DNA from: an uncultured Spartobacteria bacterium
GTDB taxonomy: Bacteria; Verrucomicrobiota; Verrucomicrobiia; Chthoniobacterales; Chthoniobacteraceae
Direction of reading: 5' to 3'
DNA length: 60,096 nucleotides
Assembly (NCBI GenBank): GCA_903901425.1
Contig: CAIURC010000022.1
Span: 1 to 60,096 of the forward strand
The translations under genes and the position numbers were made by a program. Every line of letters begins with the position of its first letter. Within the stretch, counting starts at the first letter, position 1. The notes beneath the pieces are model-generated. The model worked only from the letters and a program-made list of their open reading frames with translations. It made no database searches and had not been told where the DNA came from. This document shows positions 5,768-33,363 of the stretch, in pieces.

Positions 5768-6495
5768 GCGGAGAGCCTCTCTGATTCAGAAGCAGGACGC
5801 CAGCCCGAACCTGAACGCCGGCCAAACAGCGCGCTTCCCACGCGCACCAGGGTGGATCCCTCCTCGATCGCCACCTCGAAATCGGAACTCATCCCCATCG
5901 ACAACACAGGCAACCCAACGCCGAACTCTGATGCCAATGCATCCCGCAACTGGCGCAACCCGGCGAAATACGGCCGTGCGCGCTCCCCCTCAGCAGCGGC
6001 GGGCGGGATGGCCATCAGCCCCTCCACCGACACCCGGTTCAAGGAAAGAATCTGCTCCAAACTGGCCCGGATGGATTCGGGCCGGAAACCGAATTTTGAG
6101 GATTCAGCCGCCACGTTCACTTCGAGCAGAATCCGGGGGCGGACGCCCGTATCGGCGCTGATGCGCTCCAGTTCCAACGCAAGTTCCAGGCTGTCGATGC
6201 CGTGGAAAAGCTCCACAGGCAGGCTGAGAACCTGCCGCACCTTGTTCCTCTGGAGGTGTCCGATGAAATGCCAGCGCACCCTTCCGGGGAGAACAGGAAC
6301 CTTGGCTTTGAACTCCTGCACCCGGCTTTCTCCAAACAGAGTCTGTCCTGCCTCCAAAGCCTCGACGAGAGCCTCTGGCGGATGCGTCTTGGACACCGCC
6401 ACCAACTCCACCGAGTCCGGGGGCCGCCCACTTCGGGCAACCGCGGACTCCATCGCAGCCCGGATCTGCGCGAGGTTCTCAGCTACCAGGCTCAA
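5764..6495 (-). CDS. yggS: YggS-family PLP homeostasis protein
   Basis: 243 residues if started at the TTG at 6493-6495, close to the usual length of about 230. It is an alanine-racemase-fold, single-domain PLP-binding protein that controls vitamin B6 and amino-acid balance. Motifs: VELVAVSKTHPP with the PLP lysine at about residue 36, LFGESRVQEF, WHFIGHLQRNK, GLMAIPP and the phosphate-binding SMGMSSDFEVAIEEGST. The only ATG upstream (6648) lies deep inside the preceding protease gene and adds 51 unrelated residues. The TTG overlaps the protease stop in a TTGA, so I prefer it. Its stop overlaps the DUF971 start. Function is confident; the start is inferred. Confidence 0.88.
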   Translation of the reverse strand: MSLVAENLAQIRAAMESAVARSGRPPDSVELVAVSKTHPPEALVEALEAGQTLFGESRVQEFKAKVPVLPGRVRWHFIGHLQRNKVRQVLSLPVELFHGIDSLELALELERISADTGVRPRILLEVNVAAESSKFGFRPESIRASLEQILSLNRVSVEGLMAIPPAAAEGERARPYFAGLRQLRDALASEFGVGLPVLSMGMSSDFEVAIEEGSTLVRVGSALFGRRSGSGWRPASESERLSA

Positions 6496-9400
6496 GGCGC
6501 GTTCGGGTCCAAGATCACATTGCCAATCTCTCGGAACCCGGTCTGCCCCAAGGGCGCTCTCGGAGCCAGAAATGCCCCATAACCGCGTGGGGTCCCCAGA
6601 ATTGTTTTCTGGTAGATCACCCCTTCGTAACCGACCGTAGCCGGCCACCTTGGATGAACAAACCGTCCGGAAAATAGGCCGGTGGCGGCACTCACCCCGA
6701 AAGTCACTTTCTTCGGGTTTACCAAAGCTGGAGTGGCTGAAACATCGCCAACGAAGACCGTGCTATTCTTGAGGCTAGAGAGGTTGACCTGCGTCGAAAA
6801 CTCGGTGTTCAGCAAGCTTCCTTTCGTAAAGTTCAGCAACACCGACCCAGCCGGATCCGCAGTCGCCTGACCCGGGATTACCCAAGGGCTCCCCGTGGCA
6901 GAAGGCGCCGTATACAAAGCGGCAAGGAGCGTCTGCGGGAATGGACCGAACCCGCTCGGCAGGAGGTTCGCATCGCTCCCGGTGGTCGACTTGTACCAAG
7001 TTCCCGTGGTCTTCATGTCGCTGTCACTGGCGGACTGCACCACGCTTGTTCCAAAAAACACCCCCTGAGCGCCAGACCTGCCGGCATACAGCGGCAGGTA
7101 GAGCGGCCACGTGTTGTCTTTGCTCAATACCGAAGCCAGCCTCACAAACGGTGAGCCGTCCGCCAGTTTCCCCGTCAAAAACACCCGACCCAACGTGTCC
7201 ACCGTGGCCGTGCCATATCCGTGCCCAGTCGGCTCCGTGGGATTCGAAAAGGCCAGATCCGAGGTCGGGTTTCCGATCGGAGCCGGAGAAACCGTCAACT
7301 GCAATCCGTCCGCGCTCACGGACGTCACCGTGGTTCCCGTCAGGATGTTGGTCCCTGAAACATAGGCATTCTGCCGGATCCCCAGCGTTGCGGCCGTGTC
7401 AGTCCCGGTCAACGTGATGACGTTTCCGGAACGCGTCGCCAGCGAGGTGGTGGTGATGCTCCGCGGCGGCACAATAAACGTGAACGGCTTGGTGGGCGCC
7501 GCGTACGGCAGGCTCTTGCTGTAATGCGCGCGGTCCGCACTGACGACGCCAGCCACCGGGGTTGTCCCGAATCCTGGACCCGCATCCGTTCCCGTCACCG
7601 TGCCCGTGATGCGCCGTGTGCCGGCCGGATTCAAGTCGAGAACCAGATTCAACGTGAGGTTGTCGCGGGCATCTTTCCGCGGGATGAGCACGTTGAGCGT
7701 GGCCTGCCCAGCCGCGGGCACCCCGGGCACAAACTCCCCTTTGAAGGGGTAGGCGACTGACCCCACCAGAGGCGCGGTGACCGTCGTGTTCGGATACACC
7801 ACCCGGCCCAGTGTCAAACGCCCCGAACACACCCCGCCCGCAGTAACCGTGGCCGACAGGAACCCGGTCGAGTTATATGCAAACCCGGCCGCCTTCTGCA
7901 CCAATCCCGCGTAGTTCCCGGTGATTTCCGTGGCATAGGGACTGGTGACAAAGTTTGCCGTCAGCGTGGCTGCGCTGTCCGGCATCACGAAGTTCAAAGT
8001 CCGGGAATTGGAGTTGATCAACCCGGTCCACCCGGAAAACACCAGCCCGGATCTCGAGGAGGAGGAGGCTGTGATCCGGTAGGTGGTGTTCGCGTCCCTC
8101 GCACTGGTGGGAAGGAACCCCCGGTCGACCGCCACCCCGGAGGTGGGCGTTGCCGGCGCGCCGTTCACCTGCAGGTTCACCGTGAGCAGGTTGGTTTTCG
8201 TGAAGAAAAACGTCCTCACGGCAAGGGGGGACTGGTTGCCGTCCTTGTCTTCGCTATACACACGCAACGTGTTCAAACCAGGCACGATCTCCGCCTGACT
8301 GAGCGTTGCCGTCCAGTCGGAGACACTTCCCCGGGGGATCAGGGAACCCACCGGGATCACATGGGGAGCCGCACTGTTGACTCGGTACACCACAGCACTC
8401 AGGTCTCGCACATTGTCTGAGGCACTGCCGGAAGCGGAAATCCCCACCACCACCTGCGAAAGCGTCACGCGCTGCCCCGCCTTCGGGGTTGCAATTGTCA
8501 CGGAGGGCTTCCTGCGGTCCGGCAACCTGTCGTTGTCCGTGATGCTGACCGTGGCCGATCCCTTCTGGGCCGTGACAGCGTAGGTGGCGTTCTCCATAAC
8601 CGTCGCCACCACGGAAAGCGTGCCATTGTAAAGAGCGTCATCCTTTGGAGCGACCAGCAGATCCACGGAACTGAGGCCCGCAGTCAGGGTCACAGAAGCC
8701 GTCCATGCCACCCCTGGAGCTACCGGGAGAACCGCCGGCCTTTGGCTCAGAGTGAAACGGGTGCCGTCGATCACCTGCACCACCTGGGTCCCCGCAGCGA
8801 GTCCGGTTCCTGTTACCACCATGCCCGCCCTCAGCCCGGTGGTGTCCGCGCAGGCAAAGGTAAACTCGTCCTCGAATACACACGCGGACAGGGTCACGCT
8901 TCCCACCGTGTCGTTCGCGGCAGGATTGATGCTGAAAGCGTTGGGACTCACCGATGTGACCACTGTTCCCGCAGCAATTCCAAGACCGCTGACTTTCATT
9001 CCCACCTGCAGTCCTGTCGTCCCACCAGCGCAGGTCACATTCGTGGTGCCGTCCGTTCCCACCTGAGTGAGGGCAAGCCCGGGAATCGTCACCGTGGAAG
9101 CAATCGGATCATAGTGGGTACCGGACTCTGCGGACCCGCCCACATCCAGTTGGACCACCGTTGGAATTGGCAGAACCGACTCCTCCAATGTCGCCCCGTT
9201 CCTGCGCTCCCGTTTGATGGTGAATTTGCCGGGCCGATAAAAACGGGCGGCAGTCACAGGCTGCAGGGTTGCCGCCGAAAGCGTCACCGTCAGGTTGCTG
9301 ATGGATGCCACGGTTGTTCCAGGTGCGATCCCAGTTCCAGCCACGGACATTCCCACGGCCAGATCGGAGATGTTGAACTGAGCCGGAGCCGAGGACAGCA

Positions 9401-12400
9401 GAAGGGCCGTGTTGCCTGCCGTGTTGGTGATCCCGCTGATCCCCTTTGCCTCTTCGATCACCGGTGATCCGCCAGTGGATTCCACAGAGATACTGGGAAG
9501 ATCGTTGTCCCTCAGGTTGAGCGTGGCTGAACTCGGTGTTCCCAATGCGTACGCGCCAGGTCCGGCTGCCACCGTCAGGTTGATGGTTTCCGTGCCCTCC
9601 ACCAATAAATCCTCCAAAACATTCACGGGCACCTCCACACTCGAAGCACCGGCCGGGATCGTCACACTGGTCGGCAAAGCCTCGTAGTCAAACCCCGAGG
9701 CAGCAGTTCCGGTGGGCGCCGACAGGTTGACGGTCAGAGGCGCGGAGGTGGCAACCACCCTCGAAACGATAAATGAACCCGGGTTGGGCACCCCGTCCGA
9801 TTCCGCCAAGGTGCTGTCCCCGGCACGGATCGTCACCCGGTTGGAATCGTCGTCCAAAATCTCCACCCTGTGGATCACGTTGCCGCCCAGGGCCGCATTT
9901 CCGGTGGCGTCTTTGAGGATCAGGTAAAAAAACCGGCTTTCCTGTTCGGTCGCATTGTCCGGGATCGGAACGGTGATGGTTTTGGAGGTTTCGCCGTCGG
10001 CAAAACTCACGGTTCGGCTGTAAACACTGGTAAAATCCACCCCCTCGAGTGCGGAATCACCGGAGTGCGGGTTTACGGTGATCGAAACCACAGCCGCGCT
10101 GGTCGGACGGTCCAAGGTAATCTGGTTGGTGCCAGAATCGACCACCGTTATCCGGCTTCCGGGCCGCACGCCGACCCCGCGCACCAGCATTCCTGGAACC
10201 AGGCCGGTGGTTGCCGGGAGCGTCATCACCTCGGTTTCCGCCGCGTTCACTGCCGGGATGTTGGTCTGTTGAGCCGCACCGTTGAACCCGCCCAGGACAC
10301 AAGTCACGCCAGCTGAACCCGCGGATCCTACGAGCCGGTTGACGACGATGCTGGCCGTACTGCCGGCACCCTCCAACACTTGGGACCGCTGGGAAGCAAA
10401 CCCAACCCGCTGCGTGATGGCTGGGGCGCTGGTTCCAAACAACGTCACATCGCACGACTGCCAATTCCCCGTGGTCCCAGCAGCAAGATCCTTCACCACC
10501 ACCGTCCAAATCCCCGCGCTGTTTTCGCCCCAATGGTGCGTCGTGCTGAAAGTCCAGCCGTCAGCACCCTCCCGGTAGTCGATGTTGCTGTCGCCAAAAC
10601 TCAGCGGAGGCGCAGCATGGGTCTCAGCCAGGATGCTTCGTGTACCGCTCGGTGAAACCAGTTCCAGCTGAAGGTCGCTCCGACGGGGGTGCGTAATCAG
10701 CGCCTTCACCGTGACTCGCTCCACACGCATGTTTGGGTTTACGGAAAAATCAAAACTCTGTGTGATCCCTGCTGGCGCATTGTCTGGAACCGCAAATGCG
10801 GCGGCACTTGACATCGTCAGGGCCGTCTCAGCCCCAAGGTTTTTCCAGTCCAACGCCAGGGTCGCCGCCGTGGTCACATCAATCATCCCTGCGCCGTACC
10901 GGTGGTTGAAGTGAAACCCGGCCCCGTTGGTTGCCCAGTCCGAATCCGTCCCGTCCACTTTCACCGCTGACTGAGCCAGAATTTCACACACATCCCGCCA
11001 GCCCAAGCGGGGGTTGGCTCCCAGAATCACCGCGACCCCGCCGGAAACCAAGGGCGTCGCGGAGGACGTCCCGCCAAAGGAGTTGGTGTACCCGAGCCCT
11101 GTGGGCTCGCCGGTTCCCGGGTTGTAGCCGGGCGCAGCCGCCAGATTGAAGTTGTCCGTGGTGAAAATTCCAAGCGACCCCCCATTGCTCGGTGCCGAAA
11201 TCAGCAGGTTCGCACCGGGGTTGCTGTACCATGACTGCACCCCAGAGTTGTCAATCGCACCCACGGCTACCACAAACCGGTTCCTCTGCATCTGCTGGTA
11301 GTTGCCGTTGTCCTGCCGGGTTCTAGAGTTTCCGTTCGCAAACACAGTCACCTGACCTCGCACAAATTTCGCAGCCGAAACCGCCCCCAACGTCGTCTGG
11401 GTGAGTGTCACTTGGCTGCTGGAGTCAATCGACGTCACACGACTCCCGGGACGGACTCCAGTCCCAAGGACCGGCATTCCAACACTCAAATCAGCGGTGC
11501 TCACCAAACCGCTCAACACCGCGCTGCCCGCCGTGTTCGTCACCGCCAGATCCAACGTCCGCCCCTCCTGCGCCGCCTTGGCCAGCGCCGCCTCCATGAT
11601 CGGACCCGACGAGCGCAGCCCCGGCGCCCCCCCAAAACCCCAACTGTTGTTCGAGACGGAAGCCGGGTAACCCGCCGGATTCCAAGTCAGCGCTGTCGCG
11701 AAATCCTCATCGGCCGCCGGGCCGCCGATGATTCGGATTCCAAGCAGGTTGGCCTCGGGACCACTGCCGGACACCCCCTGCGCGGAGGGAACGTCCAGTT
11801 GGTTGTTCTGACGCGCCAAAGCCACCCCGGCCACGGAAGTGCCATGCGACTCGTCGGGTGTCTGCGGCGTCGGGTCGTTCACGCCCAAAACTCCACCCAG
11901 GAAATTCCGGTGCTGGGGACTGTCTGCAGGTGGAGTCTGAGCCACCGCGTAGGTCCTCAAGTCGGGATGCCCAACCTGCACCGAGTCATCCACCACCACC
12001 AGATTCACCCCCGCCCCCTTGCTGACGTCCCATGCACTCACCACGTTCGCGTCAATTCCGGGCGCCCCCCCTCCCTGCCCCGTGTTTCTCAGATGCCACT
12101 GATTCGAAAACTGGTCGTCGTCGGGCGCTGCATACTTCTGGAGCACGCGCTGAACCACAGGCTCCGCCTGCTCCCCTCGCGCCTGCAACAGATTGGCCGC
12201 TTCCAAGGCTCGCCATGGATTTTCGAACTTCAGGTAAACCCAGCCGGCCACGGACGCCGGCCTGACCCCCTCGGCTCCCGACAAAACCACCAAATCCTGC
12301 CCAGACTGCCCAGGCTTCAGACGCACCAGCACCTCCCGCGTCCCATACACCCCAAACTCCGGCCGCCCCTGAAGCCCCTTCGGATACAACACCGGTTGGA

Positions 12401-12710
12401 TCTCAACCCCGGCCCCACGCGCACCCTCCTCCCCGCGCGCCGCCCGCGCACCATCCAGAGGCTCCCTCAACCGCATCACGGAATGCCCCACCATATCCCG
12501 GACCAACGCCCCGCCCCCGCGCGCCTGACGCTCCAAATTCAACGCCTCGCGGCCGAAACTCCCGGCTCGCGACACCAAGACCTCGTCCTCCGCCAACTCG
12601 TAACGCTCAAGTCCAGTGCCACCCCGCACCCGGTACTCCACACCCCAACCTGTCACTGTTCCCATCTGGCTCAATGCCAACAAAACACTGAAAATCCGGT
12701 CTTTCTTCAT
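6492..12710 (-). CDS. giant secreted subtilisin-like (S8, kexin-type) protease with P-domain, Calx-beta domains and nested repeat modules
   Basis: 2072 residues starting at the ATG at 12710 (MKKDRIFSVLLALSQ, a signal peptide). Order: signal and propeptide to about 195; S8 catalytic domain with Asp241 (VVDDSVQVGHPDL), His289 (ESHGTSVAG) and Ser549 (GTSSATP). A proprotein-convertase P-domain follows (RVERVTVKALITHPRRSDLQ). Next come three Calx-beta domains ending in ILDDD, LRDND and ITDND, then Ig-like and InlB-like repeats. The protein ends in a C-terminal domain recurrent in Verrucomicrobiota secreted proteins (GYGTATVDTLGRVFLTGKL, WPLYLPLY). All three catalytic residues are present. Six related 60-75 residue modules interrupt these domains in frame. 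It lies divergent from the polysaccharide deacetylase, and its stop overlaps the yggS start. It is probably an exported adhesive or degradative protease; the substrate is unknown. Confidence 0.9.
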   Translation of the reverse strand: MKKDRIFSVLLALSQMGTVTGWGVEYRVRGGTGLERYELAEDEVLVSRAGSFGREALNLERQARGGGALVRDMVGHSVMRLREPLDGARAARGEEGARGAGVEIQPVLYPKGLQGRPEFGVYGTREVLVRLKPGQSGQDLVVLSGAEGVRPASVAGWVYLKFENPWRALEAANLLQARGEQAEPVVQRVLQKYAAPDDDQFSNQWHLRNTGQGGGAPGIDANVVSAWDVSKGAGVNLVVVDDSVQVGHPDLRTYAVAQTPPADSPQHRNFLGGVLGVNDPTPQTPDESHGTSVAGVALARQNNQLDVPSAQGVSGSGPEANLLGIRIIGGPAADEDFATALTWNPAGYPASVSNNSWGFGGAPGLRSSGPIMEAALAKAAQEGRTLDLAVTNTAGSAVLSGLVSTADLSVGMPVLGTGVRPGSRVTSIDSSSQVTLTQTTLGAVSAAKFVRGQVTVFANGNSRTRQDNGNYQQMQRNRFVVAVGAIDNSGVQSWYSNPGANLLISAPSNGGSLGIFTTDNFNLAAAPGYNPGTGEPTGLGYTNSFGGTSSATPLVSGGVAVILGANPRLGWRDVCEILAQSAVKVDGTDSDWATNGAGFHFNHRYGAGMIDVTTAATLALDWKNLGAETALTMSSAAAFAVPDNAPAGITQSFDFSVNPNMRVERVTVKALITHPRRSDLQLELVSPSGTRSILAETHAAPPLSFGDSNIDYREGADGWTFSTTHHWGENSAGIWTVVVKDLAAGTTGNWQSCDVTLFGTSAPAITQRVGFASQRSQVLEGAGSTASIVVNRLVGSAGSAGVTCVLGGFNGAAQQTNIPAVNAAETEVMTLPATTGLVPGMLVRGVGVRPGSRITVVDSGTNQITLDRPTSAAVVSITVNPHSGDSALEGVDFTSVYSRTVSFADGETSKTITVPIPDNATEQESRFFYLILKDATGNAALGGNVIHRVEILDDDSNRVTIRAGDSTLAESDGVPNPGSFIVSRVVATSAPLTVNLSAPTGTAASGFDYEALPTSVTIPAGASSVEVPVNVLEDLLVEGTETINLTVAAGPGAYALGTPSSATLNLRDNDLPSISVESTGGSPVIEEAKGISGITNTAGNTALLLSSAPAQFNISDLAVGMSVAGTGIAPGTTVASISNLTVTLSAATLQPVTAARFYRPGKFTIKRERRNGATLEESVLPIPTVVQLDVGGSAESGTHYDPIASTVTIPGLALTQVGTDGTTNVTCAGGTTGLQVGMKVSGLGIAAGTVVTSVSPNAFSINPAANDTVGSVTLSACVFEDEFTFACADTTGLRAGMVVTGTGLAAGTQVVQVIDGTRFTLSQRPAVLPVAPGVAWTASVTLTAGLSSVDLLVAPKDDALYNGTLSVVATVMENATYAVTAQKGSATVSITDNDRLPDRRKPSVTIATPKAGQRVTLSQVVVGISASGSASDNVRDLSAVVYRVNSAAPHVIPVGSLIPRGSVSDWTATLSQAEIVPGLNTLRVYSEDKDGNQSPLAVRTFFFTKTNLLTVNLQVNGAPATPTSGVAVDRGFLPTSARDANTTYRITASSSSRSGLVFSGWTGLINSNSRTLNFVMPDSAATLTANFVTSPYATEITGNYAGLVQKAAGFAYNSTGFLSATVTAGGVCSGRLTLGRVVYPNTTVTAPLVGSVAYPFKGEFVPGVPAAGQATLNVLIPRKDARDNLTLNLVLDLNPAGTRRITGTVTGTDAGPGFGTTPVAGVVSADRAHYSKSLPYAAPTKPFTFIVPPRSITTTSLATRSGNVITLTGTDTAATLGIRQNAYVSGTNILTGTTVTSVSADGLQLTVSPAPIGNPTSDLAFSNPTEPTGHGYGTATVDTLGRVFLTGKLADGSPFVRLASVLSKDNTWPLYLPLYAGRSGAQGVFFGTSVVQSASDSDMKTTGTWYKSTTGSDANLLPSGFGPFPQTLLAALYTAPSATGSPWVIPGQATADPAGSVLLNFTKGSLLNTEFSTQVNLSSLKNSTVFVGDVSATPALVNPKKVTFGVSAATGLFSGRFVHPRWPATVGYEGVIYQKTILGTPRGYGAFLAPRAPLGQTGFREIGNVILDPNAP
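7244..7466 (-). repeat. nested module copy 6, inside the C-terminal domain
   Basis: Residues about 1748-1822, core QNAYVSGTNILTGTTVTSVS. It is the most diverged copy and lacks the GM. It sits between FTFIVPP and EPTGHGYGTATV, normally close together in this C-terminal domain. Confidence 0.55.
8706..8880 (-). repeat. nested module copy 5, tandem with copy 4
   Basis: Residues about 1277-1335, core LRAGMVVTGTGLAAGTQVVQ then RFTLSQRPAV. After it the Calx-beta frame resumes as ASVTLTAGLSSVDLLV. Confidence 0.65.
8884..9070 (-). repeat. nested module copy 4, inside the third Calx-beta domain
   Basis: Residues about 1214-1276, core LQVGMKVSGLGIAAGTVVTS then AFSINPAANDTV. It follows the VTIPGLALTQVG strand and abuts copy 5. 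Confidence 0.65.
9231..9431 (-). repeat. nested module copy 3, inside the third Calx-beta domain
   Basis: Residues about 1094-1160. It begins TNTAGNTALLL, has the core LAVGMSVAGTGIAPGTTVAS and ends VTAARFYRP. It is the closest relative of copy 1, sharing the TNTAG start and the AA(K/R)F end. It separates VIEEAKG from KFTIKRERRNG. Confidence 0.7.
10066..10265 (-). repeat. nested module copy 2, inside the first Calx-beta domain
   Basis: Residues about 816-882, core LVPGMLVRGVGVRPGSRITV then NQITLDRPTSAAVV. It lies between the GVTCVLGG strand and the GDSALEGVDFTSVYS strand, which are normally adjacent in a Calx-beta domain. Confidence 0.65.
11355..11543 (-). repeat. nested module copy 1, inside the S8 catalytic domain
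   Basis: Residues about 390-452 of the protease. It begins TNTAGSAVLSG, has the core LSVGMPVLGTGVRPGSRVTS and ends AAKFVRG. On both sides the catalytic domain reads continuously: AAQEGRTLDLAV before, QVTVFANGNSR (with the oxyanion Asn) after. Confidence 0.7.
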
Positions 12711-12901
12711 AAACTTAGGTCTTTTCGGAGGGCAATTCACCCAGCCCACACGGAGACACCAATTTGCGGCCCCGGGGGAAAGGCAAAAACTCTGGAAAGA
12801 AAAACTTTATTCGATCCCCCCTGCGAATACAAGCCCGTCTCCATCAAAACTCCCAGACCGCCGTCTTGCCTTCCCGCCCGCATCCAGTCCATTGATTTCC
12901 C

Positions 12902-30643: not shown

Positions 30644-33085
30644 ATGGTCGCCTGCTTTTCCATCCCGAATCTGAGGCTGCTGCTCGGGCTTTCCTGCATG
30701 GCTGTTTTCGATGCCGCCGCGGTGACATTTCCCACAGGAAAACTGGTGCTGGCCGACTACACCCCGCACCACATCACGCGTCCCATTGGAAACGGCCTCG
30801 ACCTCTGGCGGTACGACGGCAACGCGTTCAACAGCACTGCCAGTGTCACACGCCAGGTCAACAACGGGGACCTGATCGGAGCCAACGGCCGCAACCAGAT
30901 CCCTGCCTCTGTCTATCCTGTGATCGGGATGCAGTCCGAGGAGGATCCCGACTACGTGGAGTACCAGGTACTTCTGGCCAAAGCAGCGCGGATCGACGGG
31001 TTCATGATCGAGTGGGCTTATCCGGGCAAGCCCAGCAATTTGGTGCTGCGGGCCACTGCGGAGCGCCTCGGCTTTTTTGTGGGCGCGATCTGGCAGGGAG
31101 ACCAGACTCAGAACTTCCGGCTCAACCCCGCCTATCCCTCGGGAGCCACTCCGGAGCAGCGGACAGCGTTCCTGGCCGACTACGCCAACCAACTCCGCCA
31201 GGAACTCTACGAGCAGCCCACCGCCCCGAAAATCAACGGGAAACCCCTGTTGCTGTTCTTCGCGTTCGGCTGCCCGAGCTACGACGAACTCCCCCAGATC
31301 CGTTCCGGCTGGGGAAGCCCGATGCTCATGGCGCGAACCCATCTCGGCTTGCCCGACGCATTTGCCGCCGGCAATTTTCTGGCAGGCGCAGGCCGCGTGG
31401 ATGGCTATTACCCGTGGAGCTCCAGTGGGGCGGCTCTTTCCGAACCCAACTCCACCGACCCGGAATTGGCGGCCCTGATTGCGGCAAACACGCACGATCT
31501 CTATTTCTCCGGAGAAAACATCCTCGCGTACCGCACCCGGTGGATCGGCTACACCAAAACCTACGCCACCCAAGGCTTTCCGCTCCGAATGGGCGCCGTC
31601 ATGCATGGCGCAGACAACCGTCCCTGCGGCGGCTGGGGCAGCGGCACCCTCTTCTACATCGCCCGCAAAAATGGCGACACCGCCCGGATGCAGTGGGAGC
31701 TCTACCGGCAGGAGCGTCAGAACCTCGACGCCGTCCTGATCCCCACCTGGAACGACTGGACCGAAGGCACAGCCATTGAACCCACACTCGAACGCGGCAC
31801 CCTTGACCTGGCTATTACCGAGACCGGCGCCTCGCAGTTTAAGGATCTCGCGCCGGATCCTGCCGGACTCCCACTCCCAAAACGGCTCTTTGATGTCCGC
31901 AAAGGCTATGCCCGTTTGGCACGGCTAGGCTTTCCTGCAGCCGGCCCCAAAGCCCGACTCGATGCCGTGGCTCTCCAGATCGCGGAACGCCAGTTTGCCG
32001 CCGCCGCAACGGCCCTCGACACCGAGGAAGCCCGGCTCGTCGCCCTCGAGCCCGGCATCCTCCCGCAGCTCACCCCCACAACTCAGGTCCTCCTCGCGCC
32101 CGCCACCGAAAAAGTCGCAACCACCACGACGCCCGCTTACCTCACGCTTTCCACCGCACTCGACACCGCCCTCTCCACCCGCCGCTGCGATGTCGAACTG
32201 ACTTGGGAATGGCTCGACACCGGCTTCGGCTCCTACCGCATCTACACCAACACCAGCGGCACCGCCCCCGCAGATGCCATCGCCGAAATCATCTGCTCAG
32301 ACACCGGTTCTTGGAAATCCGCCAAAATCCGGGTCTACGACGAGAACTGCTTTTTCACCCGGGACGCCACCGCGGTATTTGGCGGGGCGGTGTTAAAGAT
32401 CACGGGGAACGTGACGGTCCGCAACATGGTGATGAACGCCGTCCGCAGCGATTTGCGCGCGAGTGTGAGTGTGCCCCCGAAGGGAGGTGTTTATGAGGCC
32501 AACCGACCGCTTACCCTGACCGTCGAGGCCGGTGGCACAGGGCTCGTGACCTACCAGTGGCGCAGGAACGGGAGCCCGCTCACGGGACAGACCGGTCCGA
32601 CGCTCACGCTGGACGCCCCCTTGCCTGCAGACTCAGGATCCTACGATGTCGTGGTTTCCAACAGCCAGGGGAGTTCCACCAGCGCCGCCGCAGCCGTGGA
32701 GATCCGGACCCCGTTCGACCTGTGGAAACTCACCAACGCTTTCCCCCAGGGCCAGGACGGCCCCGAGTCCGACCCGGATGGTGACGGTGTTCCCAACCTC
32801 GCCGAATACGCCGCAGGCTCCGATCCGCTCGCCCCGGGAACCTCCGGCGAGACTGTCACCGTCTTGGAGTCGGGAATCCAAATGGACTACGTCTGGAACA
32901 CGGCGGCCACGGACGTGGAGTGCGTTCCGGAATGGTGCCCGGATCTGGCGAACGCTGCATGGACTAACTCGGGCCTCCCAGCACCCACGGTGCGCACCGA
33001 ACAGAACGGGCTTCGCCAGATGCGTGCCTGGTTTCCCACGCAATCCAGCCGGGTGTTCGTCCGGCTCCGGATCCGGCGCCTCTGA
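30644..33085 (+). CDS. secreted GH99/GH71-like glycoside hydrolase with Ig-like and C-terminal tail domains
   Basis: 813 residues with an N-terminal leader (LRLLLGLSCMAVFDAAAV). Residues 30-420 resemble the GH71/GH99-like TIM-barrel group: GKLVLADYTPHHI, a catalytic-face strand RIDGFMIEWAYPG, and VLIPTWNDWTEGTAIEPTLE, close to the SWNEWxEGTxIEP motif of that group. A middle beta domain follows. Next are an Ig-like domain (YQWRRNGSPLTGQTGPTLTL, ADSGSYDVVVSNSQG) and the tail FDLWKLTNAFPQGQD with DPDGDGVPNLAEYAAGSDP. It is probably an extracellular alpha-glucan or alpha-mannan hydrolase; the substrate is inferred only from fold. The gene is bracketed by direct copies of a hairpin-rich repeat. 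Confidence 0.8.
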   Translation: MVACFSIPNLRLLLGLSCMAVFDAAAVTFPTGKLVLADYTPHHITRPIGNGLDLWRYDGNAFNSTASVTRQVNNGDLIGANGRNQIPASVYPVIGMQSEEDPDYVEYQVLLAKAARIDGFMIEWAYPGKPSNLVLRATAERLGFFVGAIWQGDQTQNFRLNPAYPSGATPEQRTAFLADYANQLRQELYEQPTAPKINGKPLLLFFAFGCPSYDELPQIRSGWGSPMLMARTHLGLPDAFAAGNFLAGAGRVDGYYPWSSSGAALSEPNSTDPELAALIAANTHDLYFSGENILAYRTRWIGYTKTYATQGFPLRMGAVMHGADNRPCGGWGSGTLFYIARKNGDTARMQWELYRQERQNLDAVLIPTWNDWTEGTAIEPTLERGTLDLAITETGASQFKDLAPDPAGLPLPKRLFDVRKGYARLARLGFPAAGPKARLDAVALQIAERQFAAAATALDTEEARLVALEPGILPQLTPTTQVLLAPATEKVATTTTPAYLTLSTALDTALSTRRCDVELTWEWLDTGFGSYRIYTNTSGTAPADAIAEIICSDTGSWKSAKIRVYDENCFFTRDATAVFGGAVLKITGNVTVRNMVMNAVRSDLRASVSVPPKGGVYEANRPLTLTVEAGGTGLVTYQWRRNGSPLTGQTGPTLTLDAPLPADSGSYDVVVSNSQGSSTSAAAAVEIRTPFDLWKLTNAFPQGQDGPESDPDGDGVPNLAEYAAGSDPLAPGTSGETVTVLESGIQMDYVWNTAATDVECVPEWCPDLANAAWTNSGLPAPTVRTEQNGLRQMRAWFPTQSSRVFVRLRIRRL

Positions 33086-33174
33086 GCAGAGACCGTTCCT
33101 GGAAAGGACGTGCAGCAACGCCGCTGCTGACCCAGTAAAAAAGGAGGAACGGAAGCCGGGGGTTCCAACCCGCC

Positions 33175-33198
33175 TTTCCGGCGGTGCACCTCCGGAAA
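33175..33198. terminator. hairpin downstream of the GH99/GH71-like gene
   Basis: A 7-bp perfect stem TTTCCGG/CCGGAAA with a 10-base loop, about 90 bp after the stop. A-rich on one side and T-rich on the other, so it could terminate transcription arriving from the right on the minus strand. Confidence 0.35.
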
Positions 33199-33203
33199 AA
33201 CCA

Positions 33204-33363
33204 ACGCTCGTTTCTCGCATTTGTCCGCACGGACAGCAGCTTCGATCCCTCCAGGGATCGGCACCCTTTTTCAACGCCCAATCCGGTGGTGTCGCTACGC
33301 GCCACCGACCGGCTACCCTCTTGGATGCCTCCGGCATCTCCGAGCCCGTTCCGCTATCCAACC
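33204..33363 (+). repeat. dispersed hairpin-rich repeat, copy B
   Basis: Same unit as copy A: start ACGCTCG, core GATCCC-TCCA-GGGATC at about 33244, identical GCTACGCGCCACCGACCGGC, hairpin GATGCC-TCC-GGCATC and end GTTCCGCTATCCAACC. Confidence 0.8.

Follow-up and report, generated by a model that had tools for sequence, protein, structure and literature searches.

How did six related stretches of protein come to lie inside the domains of one giant protease? The question is raised by a subtilase gene in a stretch of 60,096 nucleotides (nt) from an uncultured Spartobacteria bacterium (GenBank assembly GCA_903901425.1, contig CAIURC010000022.1, positions 1 to 60,096; here, the window). Insertion of a whole domain in the middle of a fold is usually considered rare and old. 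The reading that we prefer, with a probability of roughly 0.74, is that the repeated stretch (here, the module) is a small beta domain of about 62 to 66 residues, which is related to the decoration protein of a tailed phage and which, both in the bacterial lineage concerned and in viruses, has entered loops of secreted, flagellar, and virion proteins time and again by in-frame recombination, as single or tandem copies. An earlier note on this DNA had pointed out the six stretches; the kinship of the module to phage virion domains was not foreseen in it.

The protease gene (positions 6492 to 12749, minus strand, as are all features of the protein given below) is a single open frame that encodes 2085 amino acids from a GTG start; the end at 12710 given in the earlier note fits an alternative start at Met14, and the full frame runs to 12749. 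Its product matches the Pfam families Peptidase_S8, P_proprotein, Calx-beta, and Flg_new_2 (InlB-type). The Peptidase_S8 catalytic domain (residues 245 to 621; 10887 to 12017; PF00082, E value of 2.4e-27) is interrupted by copy 1 of the module and is full-length, its alignment covering profile positions 1 to 288 of 288, and it also matches the solved kexin and furin. The translation includes the stretches VVDDS, HGTSVAG, and GGTSSATP, which we take to be the S8 catalytic motifs with Asp, His, and Ser, respectively; judged by sequence, this kexin/furin-like S8 subtilase appears to retain its catalytic motifs despite the insertion. The P-domain (residues 676 to 765; 10455 to 10724; PF01483, E value of 3.6e-19) is module-free, and the second Calx-beta domain (residues 966 to 1083; 9501 to 9854; PF03160, profile positions 1 to 119 of 119) is uninterrupted.

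Each of the six copies was scored against a profile built from the other five. Copy 1 (residues 400 to 465; 11355 to 11552; 42.0 bits) lies in the S8 domain, immediately before a VFANGN stretch; copy 2 (residues 829 to 896; 10062 to 10265; 37.1 bits) lies in the first Calx-beta domain; copy 3 (residues 1106 to 1174; 9228 to 9434; 42.3 bits) occupies a first place in the third domain; copies 4 (residues 1226 to 1289; 8883 to 9074; 34.0 bits) and 5 (residues 1287 to 1358; 8676 to 8891; 31.8 bits) occupy a second place there, in tandem; and copy 6 (residues 1766 to 1838; 7236 to 7454), the weakest with 15.4 bits, lies in the C-terminal domain. Shuffled versions of each copy (1000 per copy scored; 999 for copy 5) reached at best 9.4 to 12.1 bits. 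The stretches of about 60 to 75 residues proposed from the sequence are thus real, with lengths of 64 to 73 residues, and their nesting in the S8, first Calx-beta, and C-terminal domains stands. The placement of three copies in a third Calx-beta domain needs two corrections: all three are inside the domain, at two places rather than three, and the domain itself is best described, from its profile matches, as Calx-beta-like. A module-free homologue matches Calx-beta there with an E value of 0.0028, which falls short of the Pfam cut-off, and the window's own stretch gave no Calx-beta match in the Pfam search; for the first Calx-beta domain, the corresponding E values were 1.8e-16 for the homologue and 1.9e-7 for the window part. 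The DNA start shared by copies 1 and 3, AACACGGC, turned out to be uninformative, with AACACGGCNGG occurring 24 times in the genome versus 22 times for the reversed control.

The sites of the modules are empty in homologues. Twenty homologue loci were fetched from related genomes, and none of them carries the module at an E value of 0.001. Of these, 17 were aligned (the three left out are L086, whose S8 match is weak, as well as L087 and L088, in which the S8 match is absent), and in all 17 the site of copy 1 is empty, such that ...GR runs straight into G.G...GN. The alignment with kexin (1ot5) likewise stops at query residue 198 of the fragment searched and resumes at residue 261, skipping 62 query residues; on the kexin side it ends at chain position 179 and restarts at 178, the solved chain being contiguous at this place, which is presumably a helix-strand loop. 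Four homologues share the architecture of the protease (in genomes G003, G013, G028, and G031) and have no module at an E value of 0.001. When these were aligned with the query from which the modules had been removed, the sites of copies 1, 2, 3, and 4 plus 5 were read through in all four, and that of copy 6 in both homologues that reach that far. The read-through of all five insertion points in module-free homologues argues that the six stretches are real insertions, in frame, at five points of the protease. The view that modules have repeatedly landed in frame within domains is thereby strengthened, and empty sites are also present in the FlgL and FlgE-like proteins described below; in the genomes examined, homologues do not all carry the same six copies. 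A search of genome contigs with the whole protease gave one weak match, titled Butyrivibrio.

What the module is was addressed with an AlphaFold2 model of copy 1 alone, computed from 84 module rows (predicted local distance difference test [pLDDT] of 89.9; predicted template modeling score of 0.73), in which DSSP assigns strands only. A profile of the 84 rows, themselves found using an earlier 16-row profile in which 3 rows deviate by one to six residues at their ends, matches the decoration protein of Arthrobacter phage Bridgette (PDB 8eci_1) over module positions 3 to 63 with an E value of 3e-5, the sole match below 0.05 among 177635 PDB sequences. The same chain ranks first in structural comparison with the module model (VIA Z of 8.5; root mean square deviation of 1.8; 65 residues aligned) and is the only one of 999 chains that reaches a Z of at least 8. 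Five predicted viral proteins match the model at an E value of 0.001 or less (template modeling scores of 0.79 to 0.90), and five PHROGs families are matched by 33, 26, 22, 18, and 15 of the 84 module members. Three of these families are named virion structural. The PHROGs family phrog_17105 also gave a match in 1 of 14 control genomes, that of Escherichia coli, through its module part or another part. No convincing family for the module was found in Pfam (best E value of 0.0048; at most 3 of 84 members per family) or NCBIfam (best E value of 0.0029; at most 4 of 84 members per family), the Pfam family TSP_Ig-like being matched by 1 of 84 members with an E value of 0.023. Literature searches with motif strings gave no paper, and in further searches no description of this module was recognized in titles and abstract openings. 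Profile and predicted model together indicate that the module is a domain homologous to the Bridgette-type decoration protein and of the same fold. Since the six copies are all parts of a single protease and not separate proteins, we speak of a homologous domain and not of a decoration protein.

Further fold neighbors include phage tailspikes, tail tube and tail tip proteins, the P22 coat protein, and a capsule-specific lyase. Tailspikes and the lyase would suit a different emphasis, in which the module binds glycans or matrix specifically and was selected because it fastens secreted enzymes and flagella to polysaccharide; its hosts, among them a protease, proteins of the flagellum, and proteins of virion type, would suit this as well. 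Against it, the module matches a capsid decoration protein best, and no binding site was identified in it; we consider this alternative unlikely. For the function of the module, decoration or stabilization would be our first choice and glycan or matrix binding our second.

The module is widespread in this genome and unevenly distributed among its relatives. The six-copy profile gave 31 matches in this genome at an E value of 1 or less, and two larger profiles gave 34 and 36 at 0.001, counts that are partly circular because these profiles contain copies from this genome. In the family, 25 of 40 genomes, including this one, carry the module (the same count was obtained with the 84-row profile), as do 30 or 31 of 288 sampled genomes of the phylum, depending on the profile. 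Within the genus the counts differ sharply, from 34 to 36 in this genome and 30 in G002 to 1 in G003 and 0 in G001.

Module copies are also carried by viral contigs in IMG/VR. In four proteins with matches to head maturation proteases (L165, L171, L252, and L253), the module lies in the following, presumed capsid, part, and their IMG/VR relatives, 72% identical, have it at the same place. A protein of 389 residues (L167) has a counterpart with 100% identity on an IMG/VR contig. Nine further viral loci each contain at least one copy, these loci having been fetched with module queries. With the 84-row profile, the presence calls stayed the same for the head proteins, for these nine loci, and for FlgL and FlgE, described below.

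The flagellar hosts are an FlgE/F/G-type hook protein in this genome and FlgK, FlgL, and FliD in relatives. The FlgE-like protein of this genome (L092; contig C188, 30000 to 35000; frame at positions 31401 to 33284, minus strand) has four consecutive copies (residues 162 to 455), which separate its D1 part from its C-terminal part, whereas that of the congener G001, with 332 residues, is module-free. Among 7 relatives compared, a subset of the 16 other genomes matched, the module is absent from 5, and G002 and the partial G027 have three and two copies, respectively; outside these seven, G030 and G032 have five and three. FliD carries the module in two cases (L175 and L176), in L175 at residues 546 to 612, within the FliD_C match at 384 to 683.

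Related host proteins bearing the module are also encoded at L172, L181, L182, L186, and L187; that at L186 matches DUF1549 and DUF1553 and has its module near the C terminus. DUF1549/DUF1553 genes in relatives, along with giant genes of autotransporter-like type, suggest a member of Verrucomicrobiota. Two more were observed in this genome: an alkaline phosphatase with a module ahead of the catalytic domain (L093, contig C114), and an NHL-repeat protein (L094, contig C154) with a module seemingly within one propeller repeat, the other repeats being free of it by eye.

The six protease copies are spread over a tree of 75 modules and make up no single clade. Copy 2 falls with copies 2 and 3 of the FlgE-like protein of this genome, and copy 6 with copy 4 of that protein; copies 1 and 3 cluster with each other (support values of 96/41) and with another copy from this genome, and copies 4 and 5 are placed elsewhere. 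At least four label changes are forced between the six protease copies and 21 other copies of this genome, a count that was equally low in 32 of 500 shuffles. This weakly resolved tree suggests that the protease copies derive from several module lineages, and their scatter would fit modules that were acquired several times and exchanged, through ordinary recombination, between the genes that carry them. It also bears on the alternative that the six copies arose by duplication, within the gene, of one acquired copy. The grouping of copies 1 and 3, which are mutually among their best three matches, and the tandem arrangement of copies 4 and 5 are what such duplication would produce; the forced label changes and the positions of copies 2, 4, 5, and 6 speak against it, and we regard it as improbable.

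The flagellar proteins further allow gain to be set against loss. FlgL (i.e., the Flagellin_N protein, named by its position beside FlgK) has the module at one place in 7 of 16 sequences, in G002 weakly (16.5 bits; 17.7 in a repeat), and is module-free in 9 of 16, across five genera. A tree of 15 FlgL sequences, which omits the partial G027, requires no fewer than three changes; the likely history is that genus g4 and G002 each gained the module and that G012 lost it. The sister proteins of G338 (L162), with the module, and G012 (L170), without it, are one whole module apart, a length difference of 192 nt, and no target duplication was seen by eye at this junction. Could the modules be old and vertically inherited, the module-free homologues representing deletions? 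The absence in G012 beside G338 is indeed simplest as one loss, and FlgK has a module copy at one place in six relatives, G338 having one extra tandem copy compared with the other five. Given the spread of module-free FlgL over five genera, the changes forced on its tree, and the absence of copy 1 from all 17 aligned S8 homologues and from the solved kexin, such inheritance is very unlikely.

At the DNA level, identity among the six protease copies is 44 to 61% over 15 pairs, compared with a mean of 49% for random segments, a mean that is somewhat high owing to at least one overlapping pair of segments (maximum of 1.00). Repeats at the module ends do not exceed chance: the longest direct repeats are 5 to 6 nt and the longest inverted ones 4 to 6 nt (chance frequencies of 0.32 to 0.99), a result that depends on the module ends chosen. 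Internal stops are absent from 30 of the 31 matches in this genome, the exception being weak (E value of 0.164); one stop-bearing fragment was present in the phylum listing, and none among the matches listed from the family and phylum searches with the 84-row profile. An in-frame mobile DNA element translated as a by-product, of the Rickettsia palindromic type, would explain why one genome has so many scattered copies and why the sister FlgL genes differ so cleanly, but it is very unlikely in view of end repeats no longer than chance, background DNA identity, a FlgL junction at which no target duplication was seen by eye, and open frames in nearly all copies listed. Of the two options in the earlier note, the in-frame insertion element is not supported, and a protein module that is tolerated or selected in loops fits.

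Repeated in-frame recombination of a phage-related domain would work as follows. The barrel probably folds independently, with the two ends of its fold adjacent, and because of these two properties a loop could take up the domain with little loss to the host protein. It would be moved by recombination, either illegitimate or between modules and in part involving phage genes. It may persist because the host fold is barely disturbed by it and because it provides surface decoration or stabilization, or binding of a partner or glycan.

Several results weigh against this reading. Searches by tblastn with copy 3 and with the L167 module against phages, and with the L104 module against plasmids, gave no match. 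No near-identical DNA copies in unlike hosts were present among the 30 of 47 DNA pairs listed, and recent transfer was not caught; the best unlike-host pairs recognized among those listed are 77% identical over 104 nt (L169 versus FlgL of G020) and 72% over 161 nt (a head protein versus L167). With its 66 columns, the module tree was flagged as hard to resolve. The immediate neighbors of the protease gene are not common to the four same-architecture homologues (in G003, one further gene has a match about 15 kb away in the window), and we therefore call them homologues of the same architecture and not orthologues. In two of them, those of G028 and G031, the contig ends ahead of the copy 6 site. 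On the structural side, the best Foldseek match, to 8eci (E value of 0.025; TMq of 0.76), is not significant alone, and F1-ATPase barrels are also fold neighbors (Z of 5.3 to 6.0), so that the lower-ranking neighbors by themselves would indicate only a common arrangement. A model of the S8 domain plus copy 1 failed (pLDDT of 50.9; 31 alignment rows, chosen among 40 random subsets for correct junction placement). The expectation that the module is a beta domain of its own is hence borne out by the model of copy 1 alone, and its protrusion from the host domain gained no support.

If this reading is correct, an uncatalogued domain is present in many unrelated proteins and points to a little-noticed route by which surface proteins gain parts. 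Since sister FlgL proteins differ in whether they have the module, one could test directly how well insertion is tolerated, how the module moves, and what links phage coats to bacterial surfaces, and the module sites would be a natural guide to positions in proteases and flagella that accept a domain of 65 residues. A further proposal, which we consider unlikely, is that a phage coat-type domain serves as a shared currency between virion genes and exposed host genes (hook, hook junction, flagellar cap, and proteases). Cell surface and virus would then wear the same decoration, which would bear on adsorption, superinfection, and phage-host mimicry.

Among known systems, the major tail protein of phage YSD1 contains an inserted "domain2," a beta-sandwich according to the excerpt of PMC8718954 used here; likened by description only, it resembles the module as a beta domain inside another fold and differs in being a sandwich in a tail protein. 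The beta-tulip decoration fold, which as far as the excerpt of PMC7602432 goes is a five-strand barrel whose strands 3 and 4 are separated by a helix, is a small beta domain on capsid surfaces. This helix is missing from the module model, and the assignment of strands only in that predicted model rules against the module being a beta-tulip. Palindromic elements of Rickettsia are in-frame inserts within coding regions, and the module shares this position; the likeness drawn in the earlier note ends there, the module having neither inverted end repeats beyond chance nor conservation at the DNA level. The immunoglobulin (Ig)-like domains on phages, reportedly described by Fraser et al. in 2006 as a small beta domain across many unlike structural proteins, resemble the module in their scatter, but the module has no convincing Ig-like Pfam match and inserts in frame also in a bacterial protease and in flagellar proteins. 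The Bridgette decoration protein is like the module in both profile and fold; it is a separate protein, with 126 residues in the PDB sequence, whereas the module is nested in unrelated proteins.

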